Source of the DNA: Gordonia sp. KTR9
GTDB lineage: Bacteria; Actinomycetota; Actinomycetes; Mycobacteriales; Mycobacteriaceae
Direction: 5' to 3'
DNA: 64,000 bases
Assembly: GCF_000143885.2 (NCBI RefSeq)
Contig: NC_018581.1
Location: 558,001 to 622,000 of the forward strand
Shown here: positions 1 through 22,838 of the stretch, one piece after another
Layout of the letters: the number at the start of each line of letters is the position of its first letter
Numbering within the stretch: position 1 is the stretch's first letter
Program-made: the position numbers and the translations under genes
The notes under the pieces: model-generated
The model's input: the letters and a program-made list of their open reading frames with translations, nothing else
The model's database searches: none
Told to the model about the DNA's origin: nothing

Positions 1-254
1 CCGGCGTCGACGAAACCGGCGGCGCGGCGGAGGGTGGCGGCGCGGAACTCGGCGTAGGTGAGCGTGCGCGGACCGTCGGTGGAGGCATCGGTCACCGCGG
101 GAACATCGGGGGAGCGCTCGGCGGCGAGGTCGAGGGCCGCGAACAGCGGGCGGTCGAGGAAGACACCCGCATCCCGGTACTTCTGTGCCTGGGCGTCGGC
201 GTAAGGGGTGAAACCGTCGAGCAGATCGGGCACGTGGTCGAGGTGCGTCGGCAT
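1..254 (-). CDS. Aryl acid-AMP ligase, N-terminal part (cut by window edge)
   Basis: Only the first 84 or so codons are present, reading leftward from the ATG at 254; the rest lies outside the window. The visible protein begins MPTHLDHVPDLLDGFTPYAD and continues with a RDAGVFLDRPLFAAL segment and a TYAEFRAAT segment. This is how the N-terminus of stand-alone EntE/DhbE/MbtA-type aryl-AMP ligases looks. These enzymes adenylate salicylate or 2,3-dihydroxybenzoate and load it on an aryl carrier protein. The divergent neighbour is a salicylate synthase, so salicylate is the inferred substrate, and the tandem carrier domains of the NRPS at 16-20 kb are the likely acceptors. It shares an intergenic region with two iron boxes. 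Confidence 0.75.
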   Translation of the reverse strand, partial: MPTHLDHVPDLLDGFTPYADAQAQKYRDAGVFLDRPLFAALDLAAERSPDVPAVTDASTDGPRTLTYAEFRAATLRRAAGFVDA

Positions 255-277
255 GAGTTCATTCAAACACAGCCAGG

Positions 278-296
278 ATAGGGTAACCTTACCGGT
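278..296. promoter_or_regulatory. IdeR/DtxR-like iron box
   Basis: The sequence ATAGGGTAACCTTACCGGT resembles the 19-bp DtxR/IdeR consensus TTAGGTTAGCCTAACCTAA. It lies about 25 bp upstream of the aryl-AMP ligase start (254, minus strand), so it probably represses that gene when iron is sufficient. Identification is by eye. Confidence 0.6.
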
Positions 297-343
297 CGAT
301 ACGGGACGGTGAACCGGCTCTCGACCCGCGGGGGGTTGTTTGA

Positions 344-362
344 TTAGGCTGCCCTAAGATTC
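344..362. promoter_or_regulatory. IdeR/DtxR-like iron box upstream of mbtI
   Basis: TTAGGCTGCCCTAAGATTC matches the IdeR consensus well in both half-sites. A further CCCTAAGAT half-site follows at 362-370, suggesting two adjacent repressor dimers. The box is about 50 bp upstream of the mbtI start codon (412). Confidence 0.65.
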
Positions 363-411
363 CCTAAGATCATCGGTGCTCGAGTGCATCACGACCGGAG
401 GAACGAAGGAC

Positions 412-1752
412 ATGTCGCTGACAACCGAATCGCACGCCGCGCAGTTCGTCGACCTGCTCGCGCCTGCCTCGCCGCTGAGCGAGTCCGATGCCGCACGGAT
501 CACGGCGGCCTGGGCGGGCTCCGGGGAGTTCGGCGACCACGTCGTCTACGAGCGTGACCGGCGCTGGACGTTCGCGGCCGGTGTCCGTGCTCGGGTGGTC
601 GTCACGCGGAGCGAGGTCATCGTCGACGACCAGGGTGATCGGACGACGACGTCCTGGCACGGCGACCCGGCCGACGCGCTCGCCGCCGCCACCGCGTCGC
701 TGTCGATTCCGGACTGGCGCGTCTACGGCTGGGTCGGTTTCGACTTCTGCGCGCCCTACCACGGCATCCTCGACCGTGTCCCCGAGGGCACCGTCCTCGC
801 GCACCTCATCGTCCCCGAGTTCGAGGCGACCGTCGATGCCGGCGGAGTCGACACCGGGTCCGTCGACGCCGACCGCGCCCACCGTCTTCTCGAGATAGCC
901 TCGCAGGCAACCGTTTCGGCGGAGTCGCGACCGGTCGATGTCCAGTCCGACCCCGACGACTACCGCGGCCGGGTGGCGACCGCTGTCGCCGAGATAGAAG
1001 CCGGCCGGTACCAGAAGGTGATCCTCTCGCGCGCCGTCGACATCCCGTTCGACGTGGACATCCCCGCGACCTACGCCCGCGGCCGTGCCGACAACAACCC
1101 CGCCCGCAGTTACCTGCTCTCGCTCGGCGACCTGCAGGCCGCCGGGTTCAGTCCCGAACTCGTCGTCGCGGTGCACGACGACCGGACCGTGGTCACCGAA
1201 CCGCTGGCCGGCACAAGGGCTTTCGGGATCTCGCCCGAGCAGGACGCCGCGGCCCGCGCCGACCTGCTGTCCGATGCCAAGGAGATCGCCGAGCACGCCA
1301 TGTCGGTGCGGGCCTGCTTCGACGAGATCTCCTCGATCGCCGTTGCCGGCACGACGGTGGTGAGCGAGTTCATGGAGGTCCGCGAACGCGGCAGTGTCCA
1401 GCACCTGGCATCGACCGTGCGCGGAACCCTCCTCGACCACGAAACACCCTGGCGCGCACTCGAGGTCGTGTTTCCGTCGATCACCGCTTCGGGGATTCCC
1501 AAGACCCCGGCCGTGGAGGCGATCGACCGTCTGGAGCCCCGTCGTCGTGGTCTCTACTCCGGCGCGATCCTCACCGCGGCGTCGACCGGCGAGCTCGAGG
1601 CGACCCTCGCGCTGCGCACCATCTTCGCCTCTGGAGACGGTGCGTGGCTGCGTGCTGGTGCCGGGATCGTCGCGCAGTCCACGCCGGAGCGCGAGTTCAC
1701 CGAGACCTGCGAGAAGCTCGGCAGCGTCGCCCCGTACGTGGTCCCGCGCTGA
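412..1752 (+). CDS. mbtI: Salicylate synthase (MbtI/Irp9 type)
   Basis: Chorismate-utilising enzyme of 446 aa that converts chorismate through isochorismate to salicylate, the aryl starter of mycobactin-like siderophores. The segment around GRYQKVILSRAV carries the conserved Lys (residue 202, equivalent to Lys205 of M. tuberculosis MbtI as I remember it). The motifs VTEPLAGTRA, RERGSVQHL, FPSITASGIPK and WLRAGAGI are close to MbtI rather than to EntC or MenF, whose last motifs differ. The start at ATG 412 is chosen because a GGAGG lies about 11 bp upstream; the frame stays open to a GTG at 376. First gene of a rightward run with the ACP and dehydrogenase, behind an iron box. A DhbC/EntC-type isochorismate synthase is the less likely alternative. 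Confidence 0.88.
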   Translation: MSLTTESHAAQFVDLLAPASPLSESDAARITAAWAGSGEFGDHVVYERDRRWTFAAGVRARVVVTRSEVIVDDQGDRTTTSWHGDPADALAAATASLSIPDWRVYGWVGFDFCAPYHGILDRVPEGTVLAHLIVPEFEATVDAGGVDTGSVDADRAHRLLEIASQATVSAESRPVDVQSDPDDYRGRVATAVAEIEAGRYQKVILSRAVDIPFDVDIPATYARGRADNNPARSYLLSLGDLQAAGFSPELVVAVHDDRTVVTEPLAGTRAFGISPEQDAAARADLLSDAKEIAEHAMSVRACFDEISSIAVAGTTVVSEFMEVRERGSVQHLASTVRGTLLDHETPWRALEVVFPSITASGIPKTPAVEAIDRLEPRRRGLYSGAILTAASTGELEATLALRTIFASGDGAWLRAGAGIVAQSTPEREFTETCEKLGSVAPYVVPR

Positions 1753-1798
1753 TCACCCGATACTTTCGACCGAACACCCCCATCTCAGGAGTCACCAC

Positions 1799-2047
1799 AT
1801 GTCCGACCACATCACCGAAGCCCTGCGCGGCATCCTCGAAGAAGACCTCGACCTCGCGCTCGGCGACGTCAGCCGCGACTCGAAGCTGATCGACGACCTG
1901 GGGCTGGACTCGGTGGCGTTCGCCATCGGCGTGGTGGCGATCGAGGAACGTCTCGGGGTGAAGCTCTCGGAGCGGGAGCTCTTCGAGTCCAAGACCGTCG
2001 GCGATCTGGAGGACCTCATCCGGTCGAAGGCCGGCACCCCGGCCTGA
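1799..2047 (+). CDS. Stand-alone acyl carrier protein, MbtL-like
   Basis: An 82-aa carrier protein with the phosphopantetheine attachment motif DLGLDSVAF near residue 40 and the usual four-helix pattern, rich in Asp and Glu. A CAGGAG ribosome-binding site ends 8 bp before the ATG. It is followed 17 bp later by an acyl dehydrogenase. In mycobactin clusters the equivalent pair (MbtL and MbtN) prepares an alpha,beta-unsaturated fatty acyl-ACP that is transferred to an N-hydroxylated amine. The same job is inferred here, with the fatty acyl-AMP ligase at 20.3 kb as loader. Confidence 0.85.
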
Positions 2048-2064
2048 GAGGACGCAGAGCCGAC

Positions 2065-3246
2065 ATGAGTGTGGACACGCCAGTGCAGACGTACGCCGAA
2101 CTGCTCGACGCCGCGTTCGACGATCGGGTGACGTCGTGGACGGCGCAGGCCGAACGGGATCACCGGTTTCCCCGGCCCCTTCTCGAACATCTCGGTGCCG
2201 AAGGTGTCTTCGTCCGGAAGTGGGAGGACCGCAAGTTCACCGACCTGCACGACCACTTCGCGCTCGGTGCCCACCTCGGTGCTCTCGGTTCCGCGGCGAT
2301 CGGGGTGGGGGTCAGCCTGCACGACTCCGCCATCGCCATCCTCCGCCGCTTCGGCCGCAACGACTACCTCAAAGACCTGGCCCAGCGTGCGCTGACCGCC
2401 GAGACCGTGCTGTGTATCGGCGCCTCCGAGGAGCAGGGCGGCTCGGATCTGCAGAACTCCGAGACCCGGATCCATCCGGAGACCGGCGGCTTCCGCGTCG
2501 TCGGACACAAGAAGTTCGTGTCGCTCTCACCGATCGCGGACCACGTCTTCGTGGTCTGCCGTGGCGCCGACGACGGTCCTGATGTCGGTGGCAACGTGGC
2601 CCTGGCCGCGGTGCCCATCGAGTCGGTGACGGTCGGCGAGCCGTACCAGAAGCTCGGCGCCGGGCCCCTCGACACCGCTCCGGTCACGATCGACGCCTGG
2701 ATTCCGGAAGAGGCGCTGATCGCCCGACCGGGAACCGGCCTGGCGATCATCAGCTGGGGACTGGCGCACGAGCGGTACTCGGTGGCCGCCCAGATCGCCG
2801 CCGCGTGCGAGGTGATGATCGGCGTGACGCTCGCGCGGATGATGGATCGCACCCAGTTCGGCAAGAAACTCTACGACCACCAGGCGCTGCGCCTGCGCGT
2901 CGCCGATCTGCAGGCCAGGGTCGACGTCCTGCGGTACTCGCTCGCCGGTGTCGCGGCCGAGGGCAAGATCAACCTGCGCACCGCCGCGGCGCTGAAGGCG
3001 ACGGCCGCCAATCTCGGTGAGGAGGTCGCGTCGGAGTGCCTGCACATCTTCGGCGGGATCGGCTACCTCGAGACCGAGACCCCGATCGGCCGTTGGTGGC
3101 GGGACATGAAACTGGCCCGCGTCGGCGGCGGCACCGACGAGGTGCTGTGGGAACTCGTCGCCGCGGCGATGAAACCCGACACCGAGCGATACCAGGCCAT
3201 GTTCGCCGACTCGGAACTCCTCGGCGCCCGCTCGCCCGCGTCCTGA
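2065..3246 (+). CDS. Acyl-CoA/acyl-ACP dehydrogenase, MbtN (FadE14)-like
   Basis: A 393-aa flavoprotein of the acyl-CoA dehydrogenase family, with the central [13 protein letters not shown] flavin/substrate loop and the C-terminal [15 protein letters not shown] region. Next to the carrier protein it most probably oxidises the ACP-bound fatty acid to the 2-enoyl form. By eye the two positions where family members carry the catalytic Glu are both Gly: the MCAD-type site lies in RVGGGTDEV and the LCAD-type site in IGVTLARMM. The base may therefore lie elsewhere, as could be true of other siderophore members. ATG 2065 follows shortly after the ACP stop, so the genes are probably cotranscribed. 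Confidence 0.8.
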
Positions 3247-3285
3247 AGCACTTCGAGACATCCCTCCCACCCAGGCGGTCCCCAC

Positions 3286-4593
3286 ATGAACAGCCCAGCC
3301 AGTCAGGCACCGGTCGACGCGCGCGTGACCGAACTCGCGCCTCCCGATCACACCTACCTGCACATGGACAAGGCCAGTGCGCCGATGCACTGGTCGATGA
3401 TCCTGCAGCTCGAGGGGGACGGCGACCTGCTCGGCCTCGACGAGGTGCGGGCGCGCGTGCGAGAGCGGGCCGGGCTGTTCGAGATCTTCCGGCTGGGAAT
3501 CCGCAACGGCCGCTGGCGCAAGCCCGAGGTGGTCCTCGCGGACGACAGCTGGGACGCGGGCGAACACGTGACCGAGTTCGGGTTCACCGATCGAGCGCAC
3601 CTGCGACGACGGGTGACGAAGCTCCTGGAGTCGCCCCTGCCGCGCCCGCGCCCGTTCTGGGACATCACGCTGTTCACCCCGTCGGCCGGTGCCGAGGGCG
3701 TCGGACAGTGGGTGCTGCTGCGAGTGCACCACAGCGTCTCCGACGGGATAGCGGGAGCGGCGTTCGCCGCGCTTCTCGCCGACGGTGAGCCCGAGGACCT
3801 GGCGGAGTTCGAGCGATTCGCCACCAGCCCTCGTTTCCGGATCAGCGGCATCGACCCCGACGAACTCGCCGAGGCGAAGGCCGCCTACGGCGATCAGCAT
3901 GCAGCGGGTGGCGGCAAGAAGCGGGCGTGGCCGGCGCTGACCAAGTCGGGCACGCGTGAGTACGCCCTGCACACCGCGTCGACCCGGACCCTGCGCAAGG
4001 CGGCCAAGCGCAACGACGCGACGGTCCACGAGTTCCTACTCGCCGCCATCGGCCGAGCACTCAGCCTCAACCCGCCGGCGGACTCGCAGGCCGACGTCAT
4101 CCGCGTGACGCTGCCCGTGACCCTCGACGACGAGTTCCGGCACACCGGCAACGCGGTGTCCGTCGCGCTGCTGAACCTCCACGGCAACGAGCCCGACCTC
4201 GCGCGCCAGATCGAGCGTGCGCGAAGCGAACTCGAGACGATCGCGAAACGCAAGCCGCAGTTGTATCTGGCCGCCGCCGACGATCTGCCGCGCGCTCCGC
4301 TGTGGGGTCTGCAGCGCGCGATCGTGAACGCGTCGATGGCACACATGCACCCCGACATCCACATCGGCATCAACCCCGGATTCTCACGGGTCAGGTCGGT
4401 GCTGGGGAAGTCGATCGTCACCCTGACGCCGCTGTCGCCGCTGGCGGGCTACTCGTTGTCGGTGACCACATTGATCCTCGGACACACCACCACGTTCGGC
4501 ATCGTCGCCGACGCGCAGGCGCTACCCGGCTACACCGATCGGTTCGTGGCAGCGCTCGACGACGTGCTTCGGGAGGCCCACCCGTCGACCTGA
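3286..4593 (+). CDS. WS/DGAT-like acyltransferase
   Basis: A 435-aa protein of the wax ester synthase/diacylglycerol acyltransferase family, which belongs to the condensation-domain superfamily. The signature HHSVSDG (HHxxxDG, about residues 147-153) supplies the catalytic His. Near the C-terminus are INPGFSRVRS and the SPLAGYSLSV segment expected for the second domain. Family enzymes move a fatty acyl group from CoA or ACP to an alcohol or amine. In this locus the donor may be the unsaturated acyl-ACP and the acceptor the siderophore, but it could also make storage lipid. It follows the dehydrogenase by 39 bp and probably ends the operon, because an iron box with a new promoter comes next. 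Confidence 0.75.
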   Translation: MNSPASQAPVDARVTELAPPDHTYLHMDKASAPMHWSMILQLEGDGDLLGLDEVRARVRERAGLFEIFRLGIRNGRWRKPEVVLADDSWDAGEHVTEFGFTDRAHLRRRVTKLLESPLPRPRPFWDITLFTPSAGAEGVGQWVLLRVHHSVSDGIAGAAFAALLADGEPEDLAEFERFATSPRFRISGIDPDELAEAKAAYGDQHAAGGGKKRAWPALTKSGTREYALHTASTRTLRKAAKRNDATVHEFLLAAIGRALSLNPPADSQADVIRVTLPVTLDDEFRHTGNAVSVALLNLHGNEPDLARQIERARSELETIAKRKPQLYLAAADDLPRAPLWGLQRAIVNASMAHMHPDIHIGINPGFSRVRSVLGKSIVTLTPLSPLAGYSLSVTTLILGHTTTFGIVADAQALPGYTDRFVAALDDVLREAHPST

Positions 4594-4606
4594 CGGGAGG
4601 GCGAGC

Positions 4607-4625
4607 TTAGGCTTGCCTTGTAATC
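4607..4625. promoter_or_regulatory. IdeR/DtxR-like iron box
   Basis: TTAGGCTTGCCTTGTAATC is a degenerate match to the IdeR consensus, with a strong left half. It lies about 77 bp upstream of the MTB12-like gene (4702), in a 108-bp intergenic gap, and suggests iron control of that gene and perhaps of the binding protein behind it. Confidence 0.5.
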
Positions 4626-4701
4626 CGGTGTCCGGGGCCTGCAATATACAGGGTGGCCGTCGGCTCGGCGGGGGCGAAGACATACACGGAGAAAGATCAA
4701 C

Positions 4702-5559
4702 ATGAGCAACGACGTCAACTACCAGGACCCGTCCGGGGTCGATTACCAGTCGGGGGTCGACTACAGCGAGCCGGCCGCGGAGTCCTCGCGCCGATCGGGC
4801 GGGGTCAGCATCCCGACCGTGCTGGCGTCGGCAGGCGTCGCCGCCATCATCTCCGCGATCGTGGTCACGATCGGCGTGGTGGGCATCGTCGTGAGTGAGC
4901 GTGGTGACTCCACGAGCGCCGCGCAGCCGACCGTCGTCAACCTCGGTGCCGCGCAGACCGCGCTCCCGCAGCAGGGCATCGCGGGTCAGCAACCGGGTGC
5001 CGTTCCCGGCCAGCCCGCCCCCGCCGGGGCGCCGGCCGGAGCGCCGGCGGCGGCCCCGACCGAGAACGTGCCCGAGGGTGGCGGCGCGATCGGCGGACCG
5101 GTCGGTCCGCCCGGCGAGGGCGCCGCACCCGCACCGGCACCGGGTCAGGCCCCGGCACCGGCGCCGGGCACCACTGTGGCGCCACAGCAGCCCGTCGCCG
5201 CCGCGCCGACTGCGCTCACCCCGGGCCAGCTCAACACCAAGGTCCGGATCGTCATGAACGCCAACGGCAGCCGCGCCGCGCGTGCCGCCGAACTCGAAGG
5301 CGGCGAGCGTGCGCTTCGCCAGATCGACCTCGTCTCCCGCGCGATCACGACCTACGGCAACGTCGGGCTCAGCTACCAGATGGTCGGACCCGTCCAGGTC
5401 AGTGGCACGACCCTGACCGCACCGCTCCAGATCAGCGTGGTCGGCCGCGGTAGCCAGAACCGCTCGATGACCTTCGTGTGGAGCGGCAACAAGTGGAAGC
5501 TGTCCAACCGAAGCGTCTGCGCCATCGCGGGATTCGTCCTGCTGCCCTGCTCGCTCTGA
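4702..5559 (+). CDS. Membrane-anchored protein with MTB12-like C-terminal domain
   Basis: 285 aa. An N-terminal cytoplasmic tail of about 32 residues is followed by one membrane segment (about 34-67, Val/Ile/Ala-rich). A Pro/Ala/Gly-rich linker (about 85-175) then leads to a globular outer domain with [20 protein letters not shown]. That last part resembles the low-molecular-weight antigen MTB12 domain of mycolic-acid bacteria. Only two Cys occur, both in the last 15 residues. The function is unknown. Its position behind an iron box and just before a siderophore-binding lipoprotein suggests a role in the envelope during iron limitation. The AGAAAGATCAAC leader gives only a modest ribosome-binding site. 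Confidence 0.7.
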   Translation: MSNDVNYQDPSGVDYQSGVDYSEPAAESSRRSGGVSIPTVLASAGVAAIISAIVVTIGVVGIVVSERGDSTSAAQPTVVNLGAAQTALPQQGIAGQQPGAVPGQPAPAGAPAGAPAAAPTENVPEGGGAIGGPVGPPGEGAAPAPAPGQAPAPAPGTTVAPQQPVAAAPTALTPGQLNTKVRIVMNANGSRAARAAELEGGERALRQIDLVSRAITTYGNVGLSYQMVGPVQVSGTTLTAPLQISVVGRGSQNRSMTFVWSGNKWKLSNRSVCAIAGFVLLPCSL

Positions 5560-5624
5560 CAGCACCGTCGAACGACGGTCCGGTCCGCCGGACGACACCG
5601 ACAACCCAATGGGGGGATCTTCAC

Positions 5625-6599
5625 GTGACTTCACGACTTCGCCTGGGTGCACTCGTCGCGAGTGCGCTCCTGTTCGCGGGCCTGCTGGCCGGTTGCTCGA
5701 GCTCGGATGACGAATCCGCCGGCGGCACCGTCCAACTCAACCTGCCGGACGGCCGTCAGGTCACGATCCCGGACACCCCGGAGCGGATCGTCACGCTGGG
5801 CGACCAGTGGACCGACGTCGTGCTGTCGTTCGGCGAGACCCCGGTCGGCTACTACGACTACTCGAAGTCGGCGACCGGCGAGATGCAGCCCTGGTACGGC
5901 GAGAAACTGGCCGACGCCACGTTCATCGACCCCACCAAGGGCGACGACGCGACCACCATCGCCAAGCTCGATCCGGATCTCATCTTCGCGCCGGGCTTCG
6001 CGTCGGACAGCCCGGAGTTCCAGCAGATCTCCAAGCTGGCGCCGACGGTGAACGCCATCAGCGACCAGGAGATCGATCCCTGGCAGGACATGGTCACCGT
6101 GATGGGCACGGTGCTGCACGATCCGGACAAGGCGAAGTCGATCATCGACGACACCAACGCCAAGATCGCCGCGGTGACCGAGGAGTACCCGGGCCTGAAG
6201 GGCAAGACCTACGCCTTCGCCTTCATGTACGGCCCCGATCAGCTGTCCGTCCTCGGTGACGAGAACGACGGCGCCGCAAAACTGTTCACCTCGCTCGGCA
6301 TGAAGATGGCACCCAAGCTGGTCGCCGAGTACCGGCGGACCGGCCAGCCGCGTTTCGGACTGAGCACCGAGAACATCCCGATGCTCGACGCCGATGTGCT
6401 CGTCGTGGCCACCGCCACGCCCGAGCAGGCGGAGACCCTGAAGTCGCTGCCCGGGTACAAGAACCTGAAGGCGGTCAAGGACAACGCCGTCACCTTCATG
6501 ACCCAGTCGCAGATCACCGGTCTGAACGCACCGACGCCGAACTCGATCCCGTACGTGCTCGACCTGCTCAAGCCGTCCTTCGCCGCGGCGTCCAGCTGA
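5625..6599 (+). CDS. Iron-siderophore ABC transporter substrate-binding lipoprotein
   Basis: 324 aa, FecB/FepB-type periplasmic-binding fold. The signal peptide ends in the lipobox LLAGC (Cys near residue 24), so the mature protein is lipid-anchored to the outer face of the membrane. Conserved features are IPDTPERIVTLGDQWTDVVLSFGE in the N-lobe (quoted here only as a location, about residues 45-70) and the long linking helix typical of class III binding proteins. The GTG at 5625 is chosen because it places the signal peptide correctly and follows GGGGGA. No permease or ATPase gene is in the window, so it must work with a transporter encoded elsewhere. A strong hairpin follows the stop codon. 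Confidence 0.85.
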   Translation: MTSRLRLGALVASALLFAGLLAGCSSSDDESAGGTVQLNLPDGRQVTIPDTPERIVTLGDQWTDVVLSFGETPVGYYDYSKSATGEMQPWYGEKLADATFIDPTKGDDATTIAKLDPDLIFAPGFASDSPEFQQISKLAPTVNAISDQEIDPWQDMVTVMGTVLHDPDKAKSIIDDTNAKIAAVTEEYPGLKGKTYAFAFMYGPDQLSVLGDENDGAAKLFTSLGMKMAPKLVAEYRRTGQPRFGLSTENIPMLDADVLVVATATPEQAETLKSLPGYKNLKAVKDNAVTFMTQSQITGLNAPTPNSIPYVLDLLKPSFAAASS

Positions 6600-6616
6600 T
6601 CCGAGCGGTGTCATCC

Positions 6617-6651
6617 GAACTCGCCCTCCGCGATATGCGGAGGGCGAGTTC
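6617..6651 (+). terminator. Rho-independent terminator after the binding-protein gene
   Basis: A perfect 15-bp inverted repeat (arms 6617-6631 and 6637-6651, loop GATAT) is followed directly by GTTTTC. It starts 18 bp after the stop codon at 6599. Confidence 0.85.
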
Positions 6652-6678
6652 GTTTTCTGGGTCACCGGACCCTTCGTG

Positions 6679-7012: not shown

Positions 7013-7041
7013 CAGGTCTCGGCCGTGGGGCAGGACTCGGG

Positions 7042-8361
7042 CTAGGGCGCGACGATGTCGTCGTCGTCGGAGGCGCCGAAACTGGTGAACGCGGTGTGCT
7101 TGGGCAGGCGGTAGGCCTCGCGGCCCAGCACGGTGTTGAGGATGCGTGCGTTGCGGACAGCGCCGATGTCGAGGTTCGGGGCCGAGACGCCGTGTGCGTG
7201 CTCCTCGGCGTTGGCGACGAAGATCCGGTTGGTCAGGGGATCGTCGGTCTCGATCTCGTGGTTGGCGCCGATGACGAGGCGCCCCCGCGAATCGCGGTGC
7301 AACGCAGACTCGATCGGGGCGAGGAAGTCTGCCTTGCGCGCCTGATAGCCCGTGCTGGCGATGACCATGTCGGTGGTGTGGGCCAGCTCGGAACCGGTGT
7401 CGAGGTGCCGGCCGCGAACCCGCAACCTGCCGTCGGCGAGCGTGTCGAGACCCTCGACCTCGACCGAGATCCGCAGCTGCACCGGGTTGAGCTTGTCCTG
7501 CAGCTGGCGTCGGTACAGCAGGTCGTGCAGCCGCTCGAGGGAATCGGTGGAGATGCCCTTGTGGAACTGCCAGTGCTGCGGGCGAACGCGGTCACGCGCG
7601 GCCTCGGGGAGGCTGTGGAAGTAGTCCATGTAGGCCGGTGTGGTCATCTCCAGCGACAGCTTCGTGAAGTCCAGCGGGGCGAACCACGGTGTGCGCGTCC
7701 ACCATCGGACGGCGGGTCCCCCGCGCAGGTTGGCCTCGAGGAGATCGATGACGATCTCGGCGCCCGACTGACCAGAACCGATCACCGTCACGGTGTCGGC
7801 GGCGAGGGCCTTCTCCTGGTTGAACAGGTAGTCGGAGCTGTGGACCACCGCCGGCGAATCCGACGAGAGTGCCTGCGGGACGAAGGGTTCGGTCCCGATG
7901 CCGACCACCACGTGGCGTGCGATGACCGTCGAGGAGCCCGTCGGAGTGTGCACGGTCACCCGGAACGCGTCGGCCTCGGCGTCCCATGTCACCTCGTCGA
8001 CCGTGGTGCTCCATCTCAGCGAGTCGAGCCGGGACACACACCAGAGGAGGTACGCCTCGTACTCGATGCGGGTCGGGAAGAAGTCCTCGCGCACCAGGAA
8101 CCGGTACATCCGGTCGATGTCGGCCATGTAGTTCAGGAACGACAGCGGATGGGTCGGGTCGACGAGCGTCACCAGGTCGGACAGAAAGCTCACCTGCAGG
8201 GTGGCGTCGTCGAACATCAGGCCCGGGTGCCAGCGGAACTCGTCACGCGAGTCGACGACGAGGAGATCCACGTCGTCGAGCGTCGAGGCCAGCGCGGCGA
8301 GACCCAGATTGAAAGGGCCGCAGCCGATCGCCAGTACGTCTACGTTCTCTACAGGGGTCAT
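7042..8361 (-). CDS. Amine/lysine N-hydroxylase (DesB/RhbE/IucD family)
   Basis: 439-aa flavin-dependent N-monooxygenase. The FAD motif GCGPFNLGLA is at residues 13-22, the NADPH motif VIGSGQSGAE near residue 192 and the ASTGYQ motif of the C-terminal half near residue 345. The family hydroxylates the terminal amine of lysine, ornithine, cadaverine, putrescine or diaminopropane, giving the N-OH that later becomes a hydroxamate. Its start codon overlaps the decarboxylase stop (ATGA), so the decarboxylated diamine is the likely substrate, as in desferrioxamine and rhizobactin synthesis. It is the last gene of the long leftward operon. MbtG-like lysine hydroxylation is the alternative. Confidence 0.85.
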   Translation of the reverse strand: MTPVENVDVLAIGCGPFNLGLAALASTLDDVDLLVVDSRDEFRWHPGLMFDDATLQVSFLSDLVTLVDPTHPLSFLNYMADIDRMYRFLVREDFFPTRIEYEAYLLWCVSRLDSLRWSTTVDEVTWDAEADAFRVTVHTPTGSSTVIARHVVVGIGTEPFVPQALSSDSPAVVHSSDYLFNQEKALAADTVTVIGSGQSGAEIVIDLLEANLRGGPAVRWWTRTPWFAPLDFTKLSLEMTTPAYMDYFHSLPEAARDRVRPQHWQFHKGISTDSLERLHDLLYRRQLQDKLNPVQLRISVEVEGLDTLADGRLRVRGRHLDTGSELAHTTDMVIASTGYQARKADFLAPIESALHRDSRGRLVIGANHEIETDDPLTNRIFVANAEEHAHGVSAPNLDIGAVRNARILNTVLGREAYRLPKHTAFTSFGASDDDDIVAP

Positions 8362-13743: not shown

Positions 13744-13748
13744 GTCGG

Positions 13749-15566: not shown

Positions 15567-15570
15567 CGAT

Positions 15571-16179
15571 CTACGCCCCCAGGTCCGTGACCTCGACCGG
15601 TCCGACAGACCTGCCGTTGTCGGTCACCGCGAGGAAATCGGCTCGGGTGCAGTAGCTCAGGTGCGCGGTCTTGTTCCCGACGGGGTAGTCCCCGTCGACC
15701 CGGAATCCCACGCTCGCGTTCAGGCGGTGCACGGCCTTGTTGCGGACGTCCGGCTCGACGACGACGCGGGCGGCGCCGACCTCGAGGATCGCGGTGCGCA
15801 TGATGTGCAGCATCACCGCGCCGGTGAAGCCGGGAAGCGACTGTTCGGCGTGGGCGACCAGCAGATGCATGCCGATGTCGCCGTCGGCGGGCACGTAACC
15901 GCTGGCGGGGTCGGCGAGTTCACTGGTGGCCGGGTCGTAGAGCTCGAACAGGAACTGCGGGTGCCCGTCGTGGTAGCCCAGGCGCATTCCATAAGGCGTA
16001 CCGGCCGTGGCCTCCGCCGACTCGCGAATCATCTTCTCCACGTCGGCGACCGAGCTGTCGAGCATGTCCCAGTACTTGGCCTTGGGATGGGTGAGCCATC
16101 CGTGGACGGTCGCGGCGTGCGACACGTCGTCGAGATCGACCGAGTTCAGGTCGTAGGTCGGTGCGGAGGAAATGGTCAT
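15571..16179 (-). CDS. Siderophore GNAT acyltransferase (IucB/RhbD/MbtK-like)
   Basis: 202 aa, GNAT fold of the siderophore acetyltransferase family. [12 protein letters not shown] at about residues 26-37 matches the family start and [18 protein letters not shown] precedes the acyl-CoA site. The C-terminal strand has [19 protein letters not shown]. These enzymes acylate the N-hydroxylated amine: acetyl or succinyl in aerobactin and desferrioxamine, long-chain acyl in mycobactin (MbtK). Given the ACP, dehydrogenase and fatty acyl-AMP ligase in the same locus, a fatty or 2-enoyl donor is plausible. It lies 57 bp after the NRPS stop and 4 bp before iucA/C. Confidence 0.85.
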
Positions 16180-16236
16180 GATGCCTTTGCTCTGGGAGAT
16201 GGTCTGGCGTTGTGGCCGGAGGTGTGCCGGATGCGG

Positions 16237-19200
16237 TCAACTGCTCGCGATCTCGGCCTCCACCTGTTCGTCGGTGAGGTGCATGACGTCGAGGAAGGTC
16301 TGCGCCACGAAGGCCGCCCGTTCCCCGTCGAGTTCGGTCAGACGCCTCGCGAGACCGGCGATGGTTCGCTCGGTGAAGATGTCGGCGACCGAGAGCGCGG
16401 GCGCGTCGAGCCACTGGCGCGAGAGCGCTACCACCCGGGTGGCCTGGACCGAATCGCCGCCCAGGGAGATGAAGTCCTCGGTGACACTCACCGGCGGGGT
16501 GGGCAGGACTTCGCCGAAGATCAGCGTGAGTGCCTCCTCAACGGGGCCGCGCGGCGCGACCGCCTCGATCGGGTCGTCGTCGGTACGGGTGCCCGCGGCG
16601 ATGGCCTTGCGATCGTGTTTGCCGTTCGGCGTCAGCGGGAACCGGTCCAGAACCGTGATGGATCGCGGGACCATGTGCGGCGGAAGGGTTTCCGACAACC
16701 GGGCGCGGAGGTCGGCGTCGTCGTCGGTCGATCCGGCGGTGAGCACGACCGCGGCGCGGAGGTCGCGGCCGTCGGACCAGGCGACCGCCGAGCCCACACC
16801 GGACAGACCCAGGAGGCCGGCCTCGACCTCGCCGAGTTCGACACGGTAGCCACGGATCTTGACCATGTGGTCGGCGCGACCCAGGAAATCGAGGAAGCCA
16901 CCGGGCAGGTAGCGCGCGAGATCGCCGGTGCGGTACCAGCGTTGGCCCTCGTGTTCGACGAATCGGTCGGCCGTGCGGTCCGGATCGCCCCGGTACCCGT
17001 CGGCCACTCCGGCTCCGCCGATCCACAGTTCGCCGGGGACGAGGTCGGGACGATCGCGGCCGGCGTCGTCGACGACTCGGCAGCGCACGCCGCGCAACGG
17101 TATCCCGTACGGCACGAACGCCATTCCCGCCGGGACGGCGTCCGCTTCGCAGATCGTGGAGTGGATGGCCGTCTCGGTGGTGCCGCCGAGGCCCGCGACC
17201 CGGCAGTCGGGCAGTTGCGCGGCGACGCGCTCGAGTAGTGACACGTCGACCTTGTCGCCGCCCATGATGACCATCCGCAGTGATGCGGGCAGGGGCGCGA
17301 GGTCCAGGAGCATGCCGAGGATGGACGGCACGCAGTTGAGGACACTCACCGAGTGCTGGGTGAGCAGTCGCTCCCAGTCGTCGACCTTGGTCTGCTCGTC
17401 GTCTCCCGGTACGACGACGGCACCGCCGACGGCGAGCAGACCGAAGATGTCGAAGACGGAGAGGTCGAATTCCAGCGACGACACCTGCAGGCTGCGATCG
17501 TCGGCTCCGATGGCGAACCGGTCGACGAGGTCGGTGATGGTCGCGACCGCGGCGCGATGCGGAACCTGCACCCCCTTGGGCAGTCCGGTCGAGCCGGAGG
17601 TGAACAGGACGTAGGCGAGGTCGTCGGCGGTCACCGCGACCGGCTCGATCGGCTCGGCGAGCCGGGCGTCGTCGAGCGCGAGTACGACGCTGTCGGTGGA
17701 TGCCCAGCCGGCGGGGTCGGTGGTGAGAACCGCGGCCGGCGTGGCCACGTCGACGATCCGCTCGCGTCGCGCCCGGGGCTGCGTGGGGGCGATCGGGACG
17801 TAGGCTGCGCCGGCGGCGAGAACTCCGAGTGCCGCGACGACCTGATCCCCGCCCTTGGGCAGATGGACGACGACCGTGTCGCCGGGCCCGACGCCGGCCG
17901 CGACGAGTGCTGCCGCGATGCGTCGTGCCTCGTCGGCCAGTTCGGCGTGGGTCCACGAACGTGCGTCGGACACGACAGCCGGTGCGTCGCCCCGTTCGGC
18001 GGCCCGGGTGAAGAAGGTGCTGTGCAGGGTGCCGTCGAAGGTGTCGGTGACCGGCAGCGGGTTCTCCACCGAAAGTCGCTGGGCGCGAACCTCGGCGGTG
18101 ATCGGATCCGGTGCCCGCACATCCCATTCGCCGTCGACGAGCAGCCCGAGGAGGCGGACGTAGTGGTCGAACATCGAACGTGCGGTGGTGAGTTCGAGGT
18201 CGGAGGCGCGGACGTCCCAGTTGAGGAGGAGACCGCCGGCCACCTCGGTCACCTGGGCGTCGAGGAGGACCTGCGGACCCTGCGAGACGATCCAGGACGG
18301 ATCGCCCAGCACGTCGGTCGCCTGCTGGGAGAACAGGTCGCCCAGTCCCAATGCGCTGGTGAACACGATCGGGGAGACGACCGGCTCGCCGCGGTGGCGG
18401 CTCAACTCGCGCAGCACGTCCAGTCCGCTCATCGAACCGTGGGCGGCGGCCTCGTGCATCGACGACCGCATCGACCGCGCTCGCTCGGCGAGCGTGGCCG
18501 GCTCGCTCAGGTCGACGCCCACGAGGATCGACGAGGTGAAGTCGCCAACCACCTGCTCGACGTCCGGATGGATCTGGGGGCGGTCGAACAAGGGCACGGT
18601 GAGCAGGAATCGCGATGTGGCCGAATGCGTTCCGACGGCCTCGGCGAACACCGCGGCGACGGCGGCCGCGGGGGTGACCCCGCGACGGTGCGCGTGCTCC
18701 TCGAGCCGCTTCCAGTCCGAGGCGGACACGGAGTGATGGAGGCGGACACTGTGCGGCTCGACCTCGCCCCGTGCCGCGCGTTCGTCGAGCGGGAGCTCGG
18801 GCGGCCCGGGCAGCGTGGGAATGCGTTCGCGCCACCACGTCACGTCGTCGTCGAGGGTCTCGCGGGAGGTGCGGTCCGCGGTGATCGTCGCGAAGGTGAC
18901 CCCGAGCTCGGGCAGCGTCTCGCCGCGGTACAGGCGAGCGAAGTCATCGACGAGGACGCGGTAGCTCATCGCGTCCGCGGCGATCATGTCCACGTCGAGG
19001 TGAACACGGGTCGAATTGCCCGGCAGGAGACTCAGTTCGGCGCGGATGACCGCCCCTTCGTCGACCGGCAGCGTGCGGTGTGTTCCGTCGGTGCGCTTCG
19101 CCGCCAGGATCTGTTCGACCATCTCCGTCGAGTGGTTTCGGAGGTCGTGTACGGCAATGGCTTCGGGGTGCGCCGGCCCGATCTCCTGGGTGCCGTCGGG

Positions 19201-19956
19201 GTGCACGCGGACACGCAGCATCGGGTGGCGTTCCATCAGCGCGGACATGGCCGAGGCAAAGCGTTCGGGGTCGACGTCGGAACCGTCGAATTCGATGTAG
19301 AGGTGGGCGGCGACGTTGCCGAAGGCGTGGCTGTCCGATCGCCCGATCCAGTAGGCGTGCTGCATCGGAGCGAGCGGGAACGGGCCCGCGGTCGTTTCGG
19401 GCAGCGGCGTCGCGGTGTCGTCGACTGCCGGCGTCGAGGCGCCGCCCAGAAGTTCTGTCCAGGCGGTGATGGTCGGTTGTGCGGCCAGGCGGGCGAAGTC
19501 GATGTCGATGCCGCGTTTGCGCCAGGTGCCGGCCAGTCGCATCATCCGCAGTGAATCGAGTCCCTGGGCGATGAGATCCTGCTCCGGGTCGATCGACTCG
19601 GGGGACACACCGAGCGCGGCGCCCACCTCGCCGCGGATGTCGGGTGCCGTGGCCGCGTCGGACGCGGACGGGCGGTCACCGGATGTGGTCGCATCACCGG
19701 CGCGAGCAGTCGATGCGCGCAGTAGTTCTGTCCAGGCGGTGATGGTCGGTTGCGCGGCCAGGCGGGCGAAGTCGATGTCGATGCCGCGTTTGCGCCAGGT
19801 GCCGGCCAGTCGCATCATCCGCAGTGAATCGAGTCCCTGGGCGATGAGATCCTGCTCCGGGTCGATCGACTCGGGCGTCAGGCCGAGGGCCTGGGCCACC
19901 TCGGCGACGACGTCGGCCGCGGTGGTGAGGTCCGTGGTCTGGGAATTCGTGGCCAT
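16237..19956 (-). CDS. NRPS: ArCP-ArCP-cyclization-adenylation-PCP
   Basis: 1239 aa. Two aryl carrier domains (about 14-80 and 105-171; Ser44 and Ser135 in GLDSLRMM) precede a heterocyclization domain (about 190-620) with PLAPMQHAYWIGR and the DxxxxDxxS motif D323-MIAA-D328-AM-S331. The adenylation domain (about 650-1130) has FTSGSTGLPKG and FDLSVFDIF (Asp831), and a PCP (Ser1169 in LGGDSVQA) ends the protein. No thioesterase is present. The layout matches MbtB apart from the duplicated ArCP and missing TE. It should make a hydroxyphenyl-oxazoline or -thiazoline from salicylate and Ser, Thr or Cys. By eye the specificity residues read D-L-F-N-I-G-L-I-H, between the known Cys and Thr codes. 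First gene of the leftward operon, behind iron boxes. Confidence 0.9.
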   Translation of the reverse strand: MATNSQTTDLTTAADVVAEVAQALGLTPESIDPEQDLIAQGLDSLRMMRLAGTWRKRGIDIDFARLAAQPTITAWTELLRASTARAGDATTSGDRPSASDAATAPDIRGEVGAALGVSPESIDPEQDLIAQGLDSLRMMRLAGTWRKRGIDIDFARLAAQPTITAWTELLGGASTPAVDDTATPLPETTAGPFPLAPMQHAYWIGRSDSHAFGNVAAHLYIEFDGSDVDPERFASAMSALMERHPMLRVRVHPDGTQEIGPAHPEAIAVHDLRNHSTEMVEQILAAKRTDGTHRTLPVDEGAVIRAELSLLPGNSTRVHLDVDMIAADAMSYRVLVDDFARLYRGETLPELGVTFATITADRTSRETLDDDVTWWRERIPTLPGPPELPLDERAARGEVEPHSVRLHHSVSASDWKRLEEHAHRRGVTPAAAVAAVFAEAVGTHSATSRFLLTVPLFDRPQIHPDVEQVVGDFTSSILVGVDLSEPATLAERARSMRSSMHEAAAHGSMSGLDVLRELSRHRGEPVVSPIVFTSALGLGDLFSQQATDVLGDPSWIVSQGPQVLLDAQVTEVAGGLLLNWDVRASDLELTTARSMFDHYVRLLGLLVDGEWDVRAPDPITAEVRAQRLSVENPLPVTDTFDGTLHSTFFTRAAERGDAPAVVSDARSWTHAELADEARRIAAALVAAGVGPGDTVVVHLPKGGDQVVAALGVLAAGAAYVPIAPTQPRARRERIVDVATPAAVLTTDPAGWASTDSVVLALDDARLAEPIEPVAVTADDLAYVLFTSGSTGLPKGVQVPHRAAVATITDLVDRFAIGADDRSLQVSSLEFDLSVFDIFGLLAVGGAVVVPGDDEQTKVDDWERLLTQHSVSVLNCVPSILGMLLDLAPLPASLRMVIMGGDKVDVSLLERVAAQLPDCRVAGLGGTTETAIHSTICEADAVPAGMAFVPYGIPLRGVRCRVVDDAGRDRPDLVPGELWIGGAGVADGYRGDPDRTADRFVEHEGQRWYRTGDLARYLPGGFLDFLGRADHMVKIRGYRVELGEVEAGLLGLSGVGSAVAWSDGRDLRAAVVLTAGSTDDDADLRARLSETLPPHMVPRSITVLDRFPLTPNGKHDRKAIAAGTRTDDDPIEAVAPRGPVEEALTLIFGEVLPTPPVSVTEDFISLGGDSVQATRVVALSRQWLDAPALSVADIFTERTIAGLARRLTELDGERAAFVAQTFLDVMHLTDEQVEAEIASS
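19451..19602. repeat. Direct repeat, copy 1 (encodes ArCP2)
   Basis: 152-bp copy identical to 19724-19875 except for one base (T19490 versus C19763). The offset of 273 bp (91 codons) keeps frame. It encodes the second aryl carrier domain of the NRPS. The third-position identity shows a recent duplication or gene conversion. Confidence 0.95.
19724..19875. repeat. Direct repeat, copy 2 (encodes ArCP1)
   Basis: Partner of the repeat at 19451-19602, encoding the first aryl carrier domain. Identity stops sharply at both ends, while the flanking linker and N-terminal carrier residues differ between the two domains (for example LGLTPESID against LGVSPESID). Confidence 0.95.
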
Positions 19957-20020
19957 CAGCCGGCGTGCCTCTCGCAGTTCGGTGACATGGTTACTCAGGC
20001 TGGGGGAACCCGCATTTAGG

Positions 20021-20039
20021 GTAGGTTATACTAACTAAC
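20021..20039. promoter_or_regulatory. IdeR/DtxR-like iron box upstream of the NRPS
   Basis: GTAGGTTATACTAACTAAC is a near-palindromic match to the IdeR consensus, 65 bp upstream of the NRPS start (19956, minus strand). It is the likely operator of the seven-gene leftward operon. Confidence 0.7.
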
Positions 20040-20092
20040 CGCTCTGCCCAATCCCTGGGCATGCCGGCGAGAGCCCCCCGAGCCGACGCGAA

Positions 20093-20111
20093 TTAGGTTA
20101 GCCTAAGTTCG
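20093..20111. promoter_or_regulatory. Strong IdeR/DtxR iron box in divergent promoter
   Basis: TTAGGTTAGCCTAAGTTCG matches the first 14 bases of the IdeR consensus exactly. It sits in the middle of the 379-bp gap 19957-20335 between the NRPS and the acyl-AMP ligase and may serve both directions. Confidence 0.8.
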
Positions 20112-20185
20112 GCTCGGTCGTCCCATCGGATGATGCGGATCACGCTGTGACATCGACGGGATCTGGGTCTTGTGTCCGACAAAGA

Positions 20186-20204
20186 TTAGGCTACCCTACC
20201 CAAA
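20186..20204. promoter_or_regulatory. IdeR/DtxR-like iron box upstream of fatty acyl-AMP ligase
   Basis: TTAGGCTACCCTACCCAAA is a third box in the same gap, 132 bp upstream of the acyl-AMP ligase start (20336). The rest of the gap 19957-20335 shows no gene. Confidence 0.65.
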
Positions 20205-20335
20205 TGGCGCGAACGTTCGTGTTCGCCATGACCAGCGGTCGGGGACGACACGCGGTATGACCACTCGGTCGCTCACCCGACCGGAAGACGATCACAAGGA
20301 CCGACGCCACGTGTTGGCGAGAACGGGAAACGAGA

Positions 20336-21985
20336 ATGTCGCAGAACAGTGTGATCCTGGAAGAATCGGGCTCGACCAATGCGTTGGCCGCCACCGTTCG
20401 TGAGGCGATGCTGGCGGGAGACACGAGTCTGTCCGTCCTCGACTCCGACACCGGTGAATGGGTGACGACCCCGTGGCGTGAGGTCCATGCCCGCGCCGAG
20501 CAGATCTCCGTGCAACTGCTCGCCGACAGCGAACTGCACGAGCCGCAGGCCCTCGGTCTGATCGGAGACCCCACGGTGGATCTGATCGCCGCCATCCAGG
20601 GTGCATGGCTCGCCGGCGTGCCGGTCAGCATCTTGCCGGGGCCGATCCGAGGGGCCGACGAGGAGCGCTGGGCGCAGAACACCTACCAGCGTTTCGTGTC
20701 GATCGGCGTCGGCACCGTCCTCGGCAGCGGCGCGCAGCTCGACCTCCTGTCGAAGGTCGAAGGCAGGCTGCACATCGCGCGAGTGGGCGAGTACGGCCTC
20801 GGGGCCGACACCACGGGCTTCGTCGCGCGCAACGTCAACGGCAACACGATCGCCGTCCTGCAGGGCACCGCCGGCTCGACCGGTGACCCGAAGACCGCGG
20901 TCCTGCCCGCCTCGGCGGTCTACTCCAACGCGATCGAACTCGTCAGCCGGCTCGGCCTCCACCGCACGCGCGACACCGGTTTCAGCTGGCTTCCGCTCTA
21001 CCACGACATGGGCCTGATGTTCCTGCTCGCGGGGATGACCACCGGGATCTCGGCCTACATCGTGCCGAACACGGCCTTCGCCGCTGCTCCTTTCAAGTGG
21101 ATGCAGTGGCTCACCGAGACCAAGACGACGGTCACCGCGGCGCCGAACTTCGCCTACGACATCCTCGGCCGGTACGGCAAACTGCTGCGCGACGTCGATC
21201 TCTCGCACCTGCGCGTCGCGATCAGCGGCGGCGAGCCGATCGACGCCGACGCCTTCGACAAGTTCCTCGAGGCGACCGCCCCGTTCGGCTTCGATCCGTC
21301 CGCTGCCGCGCCCGCCTACGGCATGGCCGAGTCCGCGTGCGCGGTCACGATGCCCGCTGTCGGCGAGGGTGCGCACTACGACGAGGTCACCGTGACCCCG
21401 CCCGGCGGGGGCGAGCCGATTCGTCGTCGCTACGCGATCCTGGGTAAACCGCTGGGCGGCATGCAGGTTCGCATCGTGGAGCCGAACGTGGACGTCCCGA
21501 TGATCGACGGGCGCAACGTCGGGCACGTGGAGATCCGCGGCGCATCGATGATGCGCGGGTACCTCGGGGACGCCGATCTCGGTGCGGGTGAATGGTTCTC
21601 GACCGGAGACCTCGGCTACCTCGTCGACGACCGGTTGGTGATCTGCGGCCGGGCCAAAGAAGTCATCATCGTCGCCGGCCGCAATCTGTTCCCGATCGAG
21701 ATCGAGCGGGCCGCCGCCGAGGTGGCCGGGGTCCGTCGCGGCGGTGTCGTGGCGATGGCGCGGGGCGAGGGGTCGGCACGCCCGGGCCTGGTGATCCTCG
21801 CCGAGTACAAGGGTTCCGACCCCGACAAGGCGCGCGCCGAGGTCAACTCCGAAGTCGCGTCGGCGTGCGGGATCATGCCCGCCGAGGTGATCTTCGTCGC
21901 GCCGGACTCGGTGCCCCGCACCACGTCCGGCAAGATCCGCCGCCTCGAGACCCGCCAGATGGTCGAAGACGGCACGTTCGAGTAG
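20336..21985 (+). CDS. Fatty acyl-AMP ligase, MbtM (FadD33)-like
   Basis: 549-aa adenylate-forming enzyme. Core motifs are LQGTAGSTGDPKTAVLP (about residues 176-192, P-loop like), SWLPLYHDMGL, APAYGMAESA and the C-terminal TTSGKIRR with the catalytic Lys. The WLPLYHDMGL segment is typical of fatty acyl-AMP ligases that load carrier proteins rather than CoA. Its role is inferred as loading the acyl chain on the ACP at 1.8 kb for later transfer to the N-hydroxy amine, as MbtM does in mycobactin synthesis. It is transcribed divergently from the NRPS behind strong iron boxes and precedes the siderophore reductase. Confidence 0.83.
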   Translation: MSQNSVILEESGSTNALAATVREAMLAGDTSLSVLDSDTGEWVTTPWREVHARAEQISVQLLADSELHEPQALGLIGDPTVDLIAAIQGAWLAGVPVSILPGPIRGADEERWAQNTYQRFVSIGVGTVLGSGAQLDLLSKVEGRLHIARVGEYGLGADTTGFVARNVNGNTIAVLQGTAGSTGDPKTAVLPASAVYSNAIELVSRLGLHRTRDTGFSWLPLYHDMGLMFLLAGMTTGISAYIVPNTAFAAAPFKWMQWLTETKTTVTAAPNFAYDILGRYGKLLRDVDLSHLRVAISGGEPIDADAFDKFLEATAPFGFDPSAAAPAYGMAESACAVTMPAVGEGAHYDEVTVTPPGGGEPIRRRYAILGKPLGGMQVRIVEPNVDVPMIDGRNVGHVEIRGASMMRGYLGDADLGAGEWFSTGDLGYLVDDRLVICGRAKEVIIVAGRNLFPIEIERAAAEVAGVRRGGVVAMARGEGSARPGLVILAEYKGSDPDKARAEVNSEVASACGIMPAEVIFVAPDSVPRTTSGKIRRLETRQMVEDGTFE

Positions 21986-22033
21986 GTCCGATTTTCCGTG
22001 ATGCGTCGTGTCATGCCGACGGTCACGAGAATG

Positions 22034-22076
22034 ACAGTGTCTCTCCGGCTCGATCACCGGGCCGGAGAGACACTGT
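22034..22076 (+). terminator. Long perfect hairpin between acyl-AMP ligase and SIP genes
   Basis: Arms 22034-22049 and 22061-22076 are a perfect 16-bp inverted repeat with an 11-nt loop and no T-run. The right arm ends 15 bp before the SIP start codon and abuts its AGAGAGG ribosome-binding site. It could be a tail-less terminator, an attenuator, or mRNA structure reducing SIP expression. Confidence 0.6.
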
Positions 22077-22091
22077 AGAGAGGTTCTCCAC

Positions 22092-22838
22092 ATGAGCGAG
22101 GTATCGACCAAGGGGCGCGGCTGGCAAGGCGCGGTCATGAAGATCCTGGGCGGTGACGACTACACCTTCACCCTCACCGCGAAGGAATCGGTGACCGATC
22201 ACTACCTGCGTCTGCGCTTTCATGGGGGTGGGCTCCTCGCCGACGCCACGATCCACCCGACCATGTGGGTACGGCTGTGGTTCGCCGACGGCGGCAAGCT
22301 GCATCAGCGTGGCTACACGCTCGTCGATCCCGACCCGGCCACGGACACCTTCGACATCGAGTTCGCCATCCACGACGGCACCGCCGCACGGTGGGCCCAG
22401 GAAGCGCAGGTGGGAGAGACCATCGGCGCCACCTTGATGGGCTCCAAGTTCGCCATCCCCGATCCGGCGCCGGCGGGCTGGCTCATCGCCGGCGACACCG
22501 CCTCACTCCCCGCGATCAACTCGTTGCTCGACACGCTCGGCGAGTCCGGGGCGGGCGCGACGATCTGGTTCGAGTACCAGCACGAGAGTGACAGGTCGCT
22601 GCCGCTGCGGGTCCGTGACCAGGACACGGTCCACTGGATCCCGCGCGGACGCGACGGTTCGGACCTCGTCGACGCGGTTCGGTCCGCCGCCTTCGACGCC
22701 TCCGATCATTTCGGCTGGGTCGCACTCGATTCCACGAGCACTCGCGCAGTCGCGGGACTGTTCCGGGCCGAGTACGGGCTGACCAAGAAATCGGTGAAAT
22801 CCCAGGCCTACTGGATCGTCGGCAAGTCGTTCGCCTGA
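22092..22838 (+). CDS. Siderophore-interacting protein (ferric-siderophore reductase)
   Basis: 248-aa flavoprotein of the SIP/ViuB family. The N-terminal FAD-binding barrel has HYLRLRF, and RGYTLVDPD about residues 75-83 is the RxYT-type FAD motif. A C-terminal NAD(P)H-like domain includes WLIAGDTASLPAI (about 128-140) and ends KSQAYWIVGKSFA, the family signature end. SIP enzymes use NAD(P)H or ferredoxin to reduce ferric siderophore in the cytoplasm and free the iron. It is last in the siderophore locus. No iron box stands directly upstream, so it may depend on read-through from the acyl-AMP ligase promoter past the hairpin at 22034-22076. Confidence 0.87.
   Translation: MSEVSTKGRGWQGAVMKILGGDDYTFTLTAKESVTDHYLRLRFHGGGLLADATIHPTMWVRLWFADGGKLHQRGYTLVDPDPATDTFDIEFAIHDGTAARWAQEAQVGETIGATLMGSKFAIPDPAPAGWLIAGDTASLPAINSLLDTLGESGAGATIWFEYQHESDRSLPLRVRDQDTVHWIPRGRDGSDLVDAVRSAAFDASDHFGWVALDSTSTRAVAGLFRAEYGLTKKSVKSQAYWIVGKSFA

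Follow-up and report, generated by a model that had tools for sequence, protein, structure and literature searches.

A probable nocardichelin-type hybrid siderophore cluster in Gordonia sp. KTR9 and its relatives in neighboring genera

We analyzed a 64-kb stretch of the Gordonia sp. KTR9 genome (hereafter, the window; positions 558,001 to 622,000 of the 5.44-Mb contig NC_018581.1) that carries a siderophore locus spanning about -1416 to 22838 in window coordinates. It is highly probable that this locus is a nocardichelin-type cluster, a hybrid of nonribosomal peptide synthetase (NRPS) and NRPS-independent siderophore (NIS) biosynthesis. Its core is an operon on the minus strand, running from 19956 to 7042 and encoding, in this order, an NRPS, a GNAT, a NIS synthetase, an amidase, a free-standing condensation (C) domain, a decarboxylase, and an N-hydroxylase. 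With the starts chosen here, genes overlap by 4-13 bases at the NIS synthetase/amidase, amidase/C domain, C domain/decarboxylase, and decarboxylase/hydroxylase junctions. The plus strand carries, from 376 to 6599, genes for a salicylate synthase, an acyl carrier protein (ACP), an MbtN-like dehydrogenase, a WS/DGAT-family acyltransferase, a lipoprotein-like protein, and a substrate-binding protein, and, from 20336 to 22838, those for MbtM and then a siderophore-interacting flavoprotein. An earlier note on this DNA had described an iron-boxed locus with a salicylate synthase, an aryl-AMP ligase, an NRPS of the order ArCP-ArCP-Cy-A-PCP (ArCP, aryl carrier protein; Cy, cyclization; A, adenylation; PCP, peptidyl carrier protein), MbtL-, MbtM-, and MbtN-like genes, a decarboxylase, an N-hydroxylase, a GNAT, and an IucA/IucC synthetase. 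Profile matches identify all of these genes; the free-standing C domain, the penicillin-amidase-family enzyme, and the WS/DGAT acyltransferase were missing from its list.

The aryl half includes an MbtI-type salicylate synthase (376..1752, plus strand; TIGR03494, 481 bits, cut-off 325), the single one over the cut-off in the whole genome, which in the PDB matches salicylate synthases most closely (365-378 bits). The minus-strand gene for an MbtA/EntE-like aryl-AMP ligase, which would activate salicylate, begins near 266 and extends beyond the window to -1416 (PF00501, 229 bits; TIGR02275, 558 bits, below the cut-off of 724). The NRPS (16237..19956, minus strand) has three carrier domains, one condensation-superfamily domain, and one A domain, with no further module. 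Its condensation-superfamily domain carries the motif DMIAAD, as expected of Cy domains. The two ArCPs are a tandem duplication (77% identity over 83 residues, at NRPS residues about 17-182), and in most Nocardia relatives the NRPS alignment begins only at the second ArCP, near the start of the frame. Apart from the tandem ArCP copy itself, no second ArCP-Cy-like region was found genome-wide. The lysine and caprolactam modules of mycobactin synthesis (MbtE/MbtF), which the earlier note had reported as absent, are indeed not found in the locus; the other NRPSs of the genome were not read singly for lysine specificity. The A-domain code, DLF-N-IG-L-IH, is identical, or differs by V/L at one place, in 29 out of 29 code-spanning NRPS hits from the 33 loci compared below, and the same code is found in Nocardia, the genus that nocardichelin first came from.

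Four minus-strand genes make up the NIS half. The DesB/DfoA-like diamine N-hydroxylase (7042..8361; PF13434, 344 bits) scores 320 bits with the PDB entry 6xbb, 315 with the desferrioxamine hydroxylase 5o8p, 304 with putrescine hydroxylase, and 171 with MbtG, and it is the one strong N-hydroxylase genome-wide, the next match reaching 50 bits. The decarboxylase (8358..9956; PF00282, 199 bits) is a DesA-like, pyridoxal phosphate (PLP) enzyme proposed to convert lysine to cadaverine. The GNAT N-acyltransferase (15571..16179; PF13523) is of NcdE/DesC type, with PDB scores of 252 bits for NcdE (9nij), 83 for DfoC, and 29 for MbtK, and is proposed to transfer succinyl; the genome's other PF13523 match lies below the cut-off, leaving this GNAT as the sole one over it. 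The NIS synthetase (13749..15566; 605 aa; family match IucA/IucC and FhuF), also the only one in the genome, is of NcdF/DesD type (PDB scores: NcdF, 9nom, 862 bits; DesD, 564; IucC, 256; IucA, 26). These scores tell against the citrate-type core that the earlier note had entertained. A mixed siderophore built on citrate, resembling rhizobactin or acinetoferrin and bearing a salicyl-oxazoline arm, would agree with membership in the IucA/IucC family and with the best NCBIfam model of the decarboxylase, the diaminobutyrate decarboxylase RhbB, matched far under its cut-off (303 of 900 bits). We nevertheless regard such a product as most improbable, given a synthetase that is DesD/NcdF-like and not IucA-like, and a decarboxylase whose top PDB match is the desferrioxamine enzyme (5o5c, 237 bits, versus 232 for diaminobutyrate decarboxylase).

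Three plus-strand genes would supply a lipid tail: an MbtL-like ACP with a GLDS phosphopantetheine site (1799..2047; PF00550; NF004533, over the cut-off), an MbtN-like acyl-ACP dehydrogenase that would produce the 2-enoyl tail (2065..3246; NF037942, 599 bits, below the cut-off of 700), and an MbtM-type fatty acyl-AMP ligase (FAAL; 20336..21985; NF004510, 715 bits, cut-off 621). The assignment of this last gene as an aryl-AMP ligase was ruled out, the gene being MbtM-type. The WS/DGAT-family acyltransferase (3286..4593, plus strand; PF03007, 48 bits, cut-off 23.6) carries the motif HHSVSD and is proposed to transfer the enoyl group from the ACP to N-hydroxycadaverine; the family is known for ester formation. 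Within the operon, the free-standing C domain (9953..11419, minus strand; 488 residues; PF00668, 60 bits) bears the motif HHLAVD, whose residues H177, H178, and D182 are invariant in an alignment of 15 sequences, and is proposed to release the aryl-oxazoline onto an amine. The adjoining gene (11407..13752, minus strand) encodes a DesG-like hydrolase of 781 residues, a member of the penicillin amidase family with an N-terminal nucleophile fold (PF01804, 482 bits; nucleophile Ser222). Its best PDB match is 35sz (644+255 bits), followed by glutaryl-7-ACA acylase and D-succinylase, and the alignment to the 35sz beta chain begins at Ser222. By eye, no signal peptide was seen in its first residues.

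Iron-box-like sites were predicted by scanning with an IdeR/DtxR consensus. The whole window contains six such 19-mers with five mismatches or fewer, all within the intergenic regions 267-375 and 19957-20335, compared with a mean of 0.2 in 30 Markov-1 sequences; at four mismatches or fewer, four sites were observed and none in the 30 control sequences. Two of the sites, starting at 273 and 339 (273..357; five and four mismatches), lie in the region that separates the aryl-AMP ligase gene from the salicylate synthase gene. The others form a cluster between the NRPS and FAAL genes (20016..20204), with starts at 20016, 20093, and the overlapping 20181 and 20186, and four to five mismatches each.

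To what extent the two halves belong together can be judged from their distribution among 401 genomes of the family. A search with the C domain matched 72 genomes at 1e-20; the 36 with at least 45% identity at their best place, the window's own included, were taken as carrying orthologues, and the remaining 36, whose best identity did not exceed 33%, were excluded. A control search of the same sample found IucA/IucC in 62 of the 401 genomes. It is present in all 36 of the C-domain genomes versus 26 of the remaining 365, and in the window's genus the C-domain genomes and the IucA/IucC genomes are the identical 20. In the 22 of the 36 genomes for which distances were computed, the C domain lies no more than 11.0 kb, and the PF13523 GNAT no more than 0.7 kb, from the NIS domain; comparing tables by eye, we found a spacing between C domain and NIS domain of about 3 kb in each of the other 14. 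An additional GNAT (74-83 bits) is found elsewhere in three of the 22 genomes. The WS/DGAT acyltransferase follows the same pattern, with an orthologue of at least 54% identity in 22 of 22 C-domain genomes searched. Its distance from the C domain is at most 12.4 kb in 21 of these; in the remaining one, it is on a separate contig of a fragmented assembly. An internal stop was reported in three of the WS/DGAT matches: in the Williamsia herbipolensis locus L087, the stop is at residue 419 out of 422 in the alignment, L071 showed none on re-check, and the third is in genome G389.

Shared open frames tie the halves together further. Scanning with two C-domain peptide patterns yielded 33 loci, from Gordonia, Nocardia, Williamsia, Dietzia, and Jongsikchunia. 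NRPS and GNAT form a single open frame in 18 of them, 14 with a near full-length NRPS and four (L073-L076) with an NRPS that runs off the locus; among these four, one N. cyriacigeorgica gene was checked over its whole length and reads ArCP-Cy-GNAT. The two genes are adjacent but separate in six loci, the GNAT lies beyond the fetched stretch in five, contig ends interrupt two (L063 and L086), and the last two have no NRPS beside the core. A single open frame of L087 (9596-12952) encodes both the C domain and the PLP decarboxylase. On a tree of 28 NIS proteins, the fusion label requires three changes, or perhaps two: L086 was labeled as separate although its contig starts within the GNAT, so the true count may be two. 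The idea that L071, L077, L078, L081, and L082 lack the GNAT and NIS genes was rejected; whole-genome searches covering L071, L077, and L078 found each gene some 11 kb away from the C domain, beyond the flank that had been fetched.

These patterns bear on whether the locus makes one siderophore or two. Its DesABCD-like enzymes could produce desferrioxamines, and its NRPS and lipid genes, separately, a small salicyl-oxazoline or mycobactin-like compound. PMC12161575 reports that G. rubripertincta CWB2 produces acetyl-capped desferrioxamines, so desferrioxamines may well accompany the hybrid. Two separate products are nonetheless very unlikely in our judgment, considering the NRPS/GNAT frames, the C domain/decarboxylase frame of L087, the joint presence of C domain and NIS synthetase in every C-domain genome, and an NRPS with one A domain and no further module. 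The control search, in particular, strengthens the case for one product. All the indirect evidence agrees with the earlier note that the locus makes a single lipidated siderophore, a hybrid containing a salicyl-heterocycle as well as an N-hydroxy-N-(2-enoyl) diamine.

A siderophore of this kind has been described. Nocardichelins were reportedly first isolated by Schneider et al. in 2007, and their biosynthesis is said to be the subject of Fisk et al. 2025 (ACS Chemical Biology), under the title 'Hybrid NRPS-NIS Siderophore Nocardichelin'. We take their structural parts to be a salicyl-oxazoline, N-hydroxycadaverines, succinate, and an enoyl acid. Formulae for nocardichelins A and B and for one further compound, found in an extract of Gordonia sp. 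Berg02-22.2, are given in PMC6467163. Each equals the sum of a salicyl-Ser oxazoline acid, succinate, two N-hydroxycadaverines, and one fatty acid (C16:1, C14:1, or C18:1) after loss of four waters. By arithmetic, threonine with odd chains fits them equally, and citrate does not. A methyl-oxazoline relative built on threonine, which would not conflict with the nocardichelin-type assignment, could be the product instead of nocardichelin itself; D, N, I, G, and H of the A-domain code also occur in the threonine code. We find this variant rather unlikely, considering that the same code occurs in Nocardia and that serine with even-chain acids fits the published formulae more naturally.

The likely product, as best read from the sequence, is salicyl-(methyl)oxazoline / N-hydroxycadaverine / succinyl / N-hydroxycadaverine / 2-enoyl. 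In the pathway that we propose, the MbtI-type enzyme would form salicylate, and the aryl-AMP ligase would load it onto one of the two tandem ArCPs. The Cy-A-PCP part would then join salicylate with a beta-hydroxy amino acid (serine or threonine) to form the oxazoline. The decarboxylase would convert lysine to cadaverine, the N-hydroxylase would yield N-hydroxycadaverine, and the GNAT would add succinyl to give N-hydroxy-N-succinylcadaverine (HSC). FAAL, ACP, and the MbtN-like dehydrogenase would provide a 2-enoyl-ACP, and a second N-hydroxycadaverine would receive its enoyl group through the WS/DGAT acyltransferase. The resulting enoyl hydroxamate would then be coupled, by its free amine, to the succinyl acid of HSC by the DesD/NcdF-like synthetase, and the free-standing C domain would release the aryl-oxazoline onto the remaining amine. 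In PMC12161575, DesG is proposed to desuccinylate HSC; the amidase probably does the same here, keeping N-hydroxycadaverine available for enoylation.

Bond accounting singles out the WS/DGAT acyltransferase in this scheme. Four amide bonds are required and, besides Cy, the locus offers four bond-forming enzymes: the GNAT for the succinyl hydroxamate, the NIS synthetase for the succinyl amide, the WS/DGAT protein for the enoyl hydroxamate, and the C domain for the oxazoline amide. Since the single GNAT over the cut-off is DesC/NcdE-like and not MbtK-like, one would expect another enzyme for the second hydroxamate, unless the GNAT forms both; we infer that the conserved WS/DGAT acyltransferase is the best candidate. 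We offer tentatively, with confidence a little short of even, the combined proposal that this acyltransferase replaces the GNAT MbtK in forming the lipid hydroxamate, and that together with the DesG-like desuccinylating amidase it splits one N-hydroxycadaverine pool between two acyl groups within one hybrid assembly line, whose halves share frames in Nocardia and Williamsia.

Several observations weigh against the nocardichelin-type assignment. The comparison with the nocardichelin ncd genes covers the PDB chains NcdF and NcdE, and diaminobutyrate decarboxylase matches the KTR9 decarboxylase nearly as well as the desferrioxamine enzyme does. The A-domain code is not known to match any serine, threonine, or cysteine code. 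Further NRPSs exist elsewhere in the genome and could share the use of genes of this locus. Finally, the two loci without an NRPS beside the core (L067 and L084) belong to genomes that carry related NRPSs elsewhere.

The earlier note knew of no described siderophore with such a gene set; nocardichelins are this hybrid, and the locus, real as the hybrid is, very probably belongs to a molecule family and a kind of cluster already published, in Gordonia too. In PMC12161575 (2025, PLoS Biology), the desferrioxamine genes of G. rubripertincta CWB2 are described as lying beside a desG homologue and mycobactin-like salicylate synthase and NRPS genes, a set held to be consistent with nocardichelins; the paper adds that no more than one family of NIS/NRPS hybrids had been identified. 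The KTR9 hybrid opens no new class, and it supports the meeting of NRPS and NIS logic in one assembly line. Two details may be new: the gene fusions, and the WS/DGAT protein acting as a hydroxamate-forming enoyltransferase alongside an amidase that desuccinylates. The comparative map over Gordonia, Nocardia, Williamsia, Dietzia, and Jongsikchunia predicts roles for the C domain, the amidase, and the WS/DGAT acyltransferase.

Other plus-strand genes of the locus encode an iron-siderophore substrate-binding protein (5478..6599; PF01497, 75 bits), whose real start is probably more internal, and the siderophore-interacting flavoprotein, a proposed ferric reductase (22092..22838; PF04954, PF08021). 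A WKL-family lipoprotein-like protein (4702..5559; NF053527, 50.6 bits, below the cut-off) is syntenic in the Gordonia loci L055-L058. Upstream of the locus (L002, 15159-17801), one open frame matches ThiC (its first 334 of 420 positions only) and then a ThiD kinase domain, and so looks like a fusion. The KTR9 genome carries at least four further NRPS regions (contig positions 1.05-1.07, 3.13-3.16, 4.18-4.27, and 4.40-4.41 Mb), with open frames of up to 13440 residues. L067 and L084 come from N. otitidiscaviarum and Nocardia sp. CC227C, where NRPS stretches elsewhere are up to about 60% identical among the matches listed. One N. cyriacigeorgica locus (L091, 14149-16314) has two NRPSs: the first consists of ArCP-Cy only and shares its frame with the GNAT, and the other, ArCP-Cy-A-PCP, is next to the C domain. 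In the 26 family genomes that have IucA/IucC but lack a C-domain orthologue, many of which belong to one other genus, the gene often lies in frames of about 900-1500 residues, compared with 605 aa in KTR9.

Among known systems, nocardichelin biosynthesis shares the hybrid NRPS-NIS design with the KTR9 locus, and NcdF (9nom) and NcdE (9nij) are the closest PDB chains to its NIS synthetase and GNAT; KTR9 keeps NRPS and GNAT as separate genes, whereas most Nocardia loci have them in one frame. The G. rubripertincta CWB2 locus, as described in PMC12161575, is alike in combining desferrioxamine genes with a DesG homologue, a salicylate synthase, and an NRPS. Streptomyces desferrioxamine clusters (desABCD with desG/desH) correspond to the decarboxylase, N-hydroxylase, GNAT, and NIS synthetase (a full desABCD set) and to the amidase; in contrast to them, the KTR9 genome has no second, DesH-type GNAT over the cut-off, and NRPS, salicylate, and lipid genes are added. 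The Mycobacterium mycobactin (mbt) system shares the MbtI-, MbtL-, MbtM-, and MbtN-like genes and the aryl-oxazoline NRPS start, but KTR9 has no MbtK-type GNAT and no second salicyl-Cy NRPS, and its hydroxylase is of the diamine type rather than MbtG. From the citrate-type NIS siderophores, KTR9 differs in a synthetase that is not IucA-type and sides instead with DesD.

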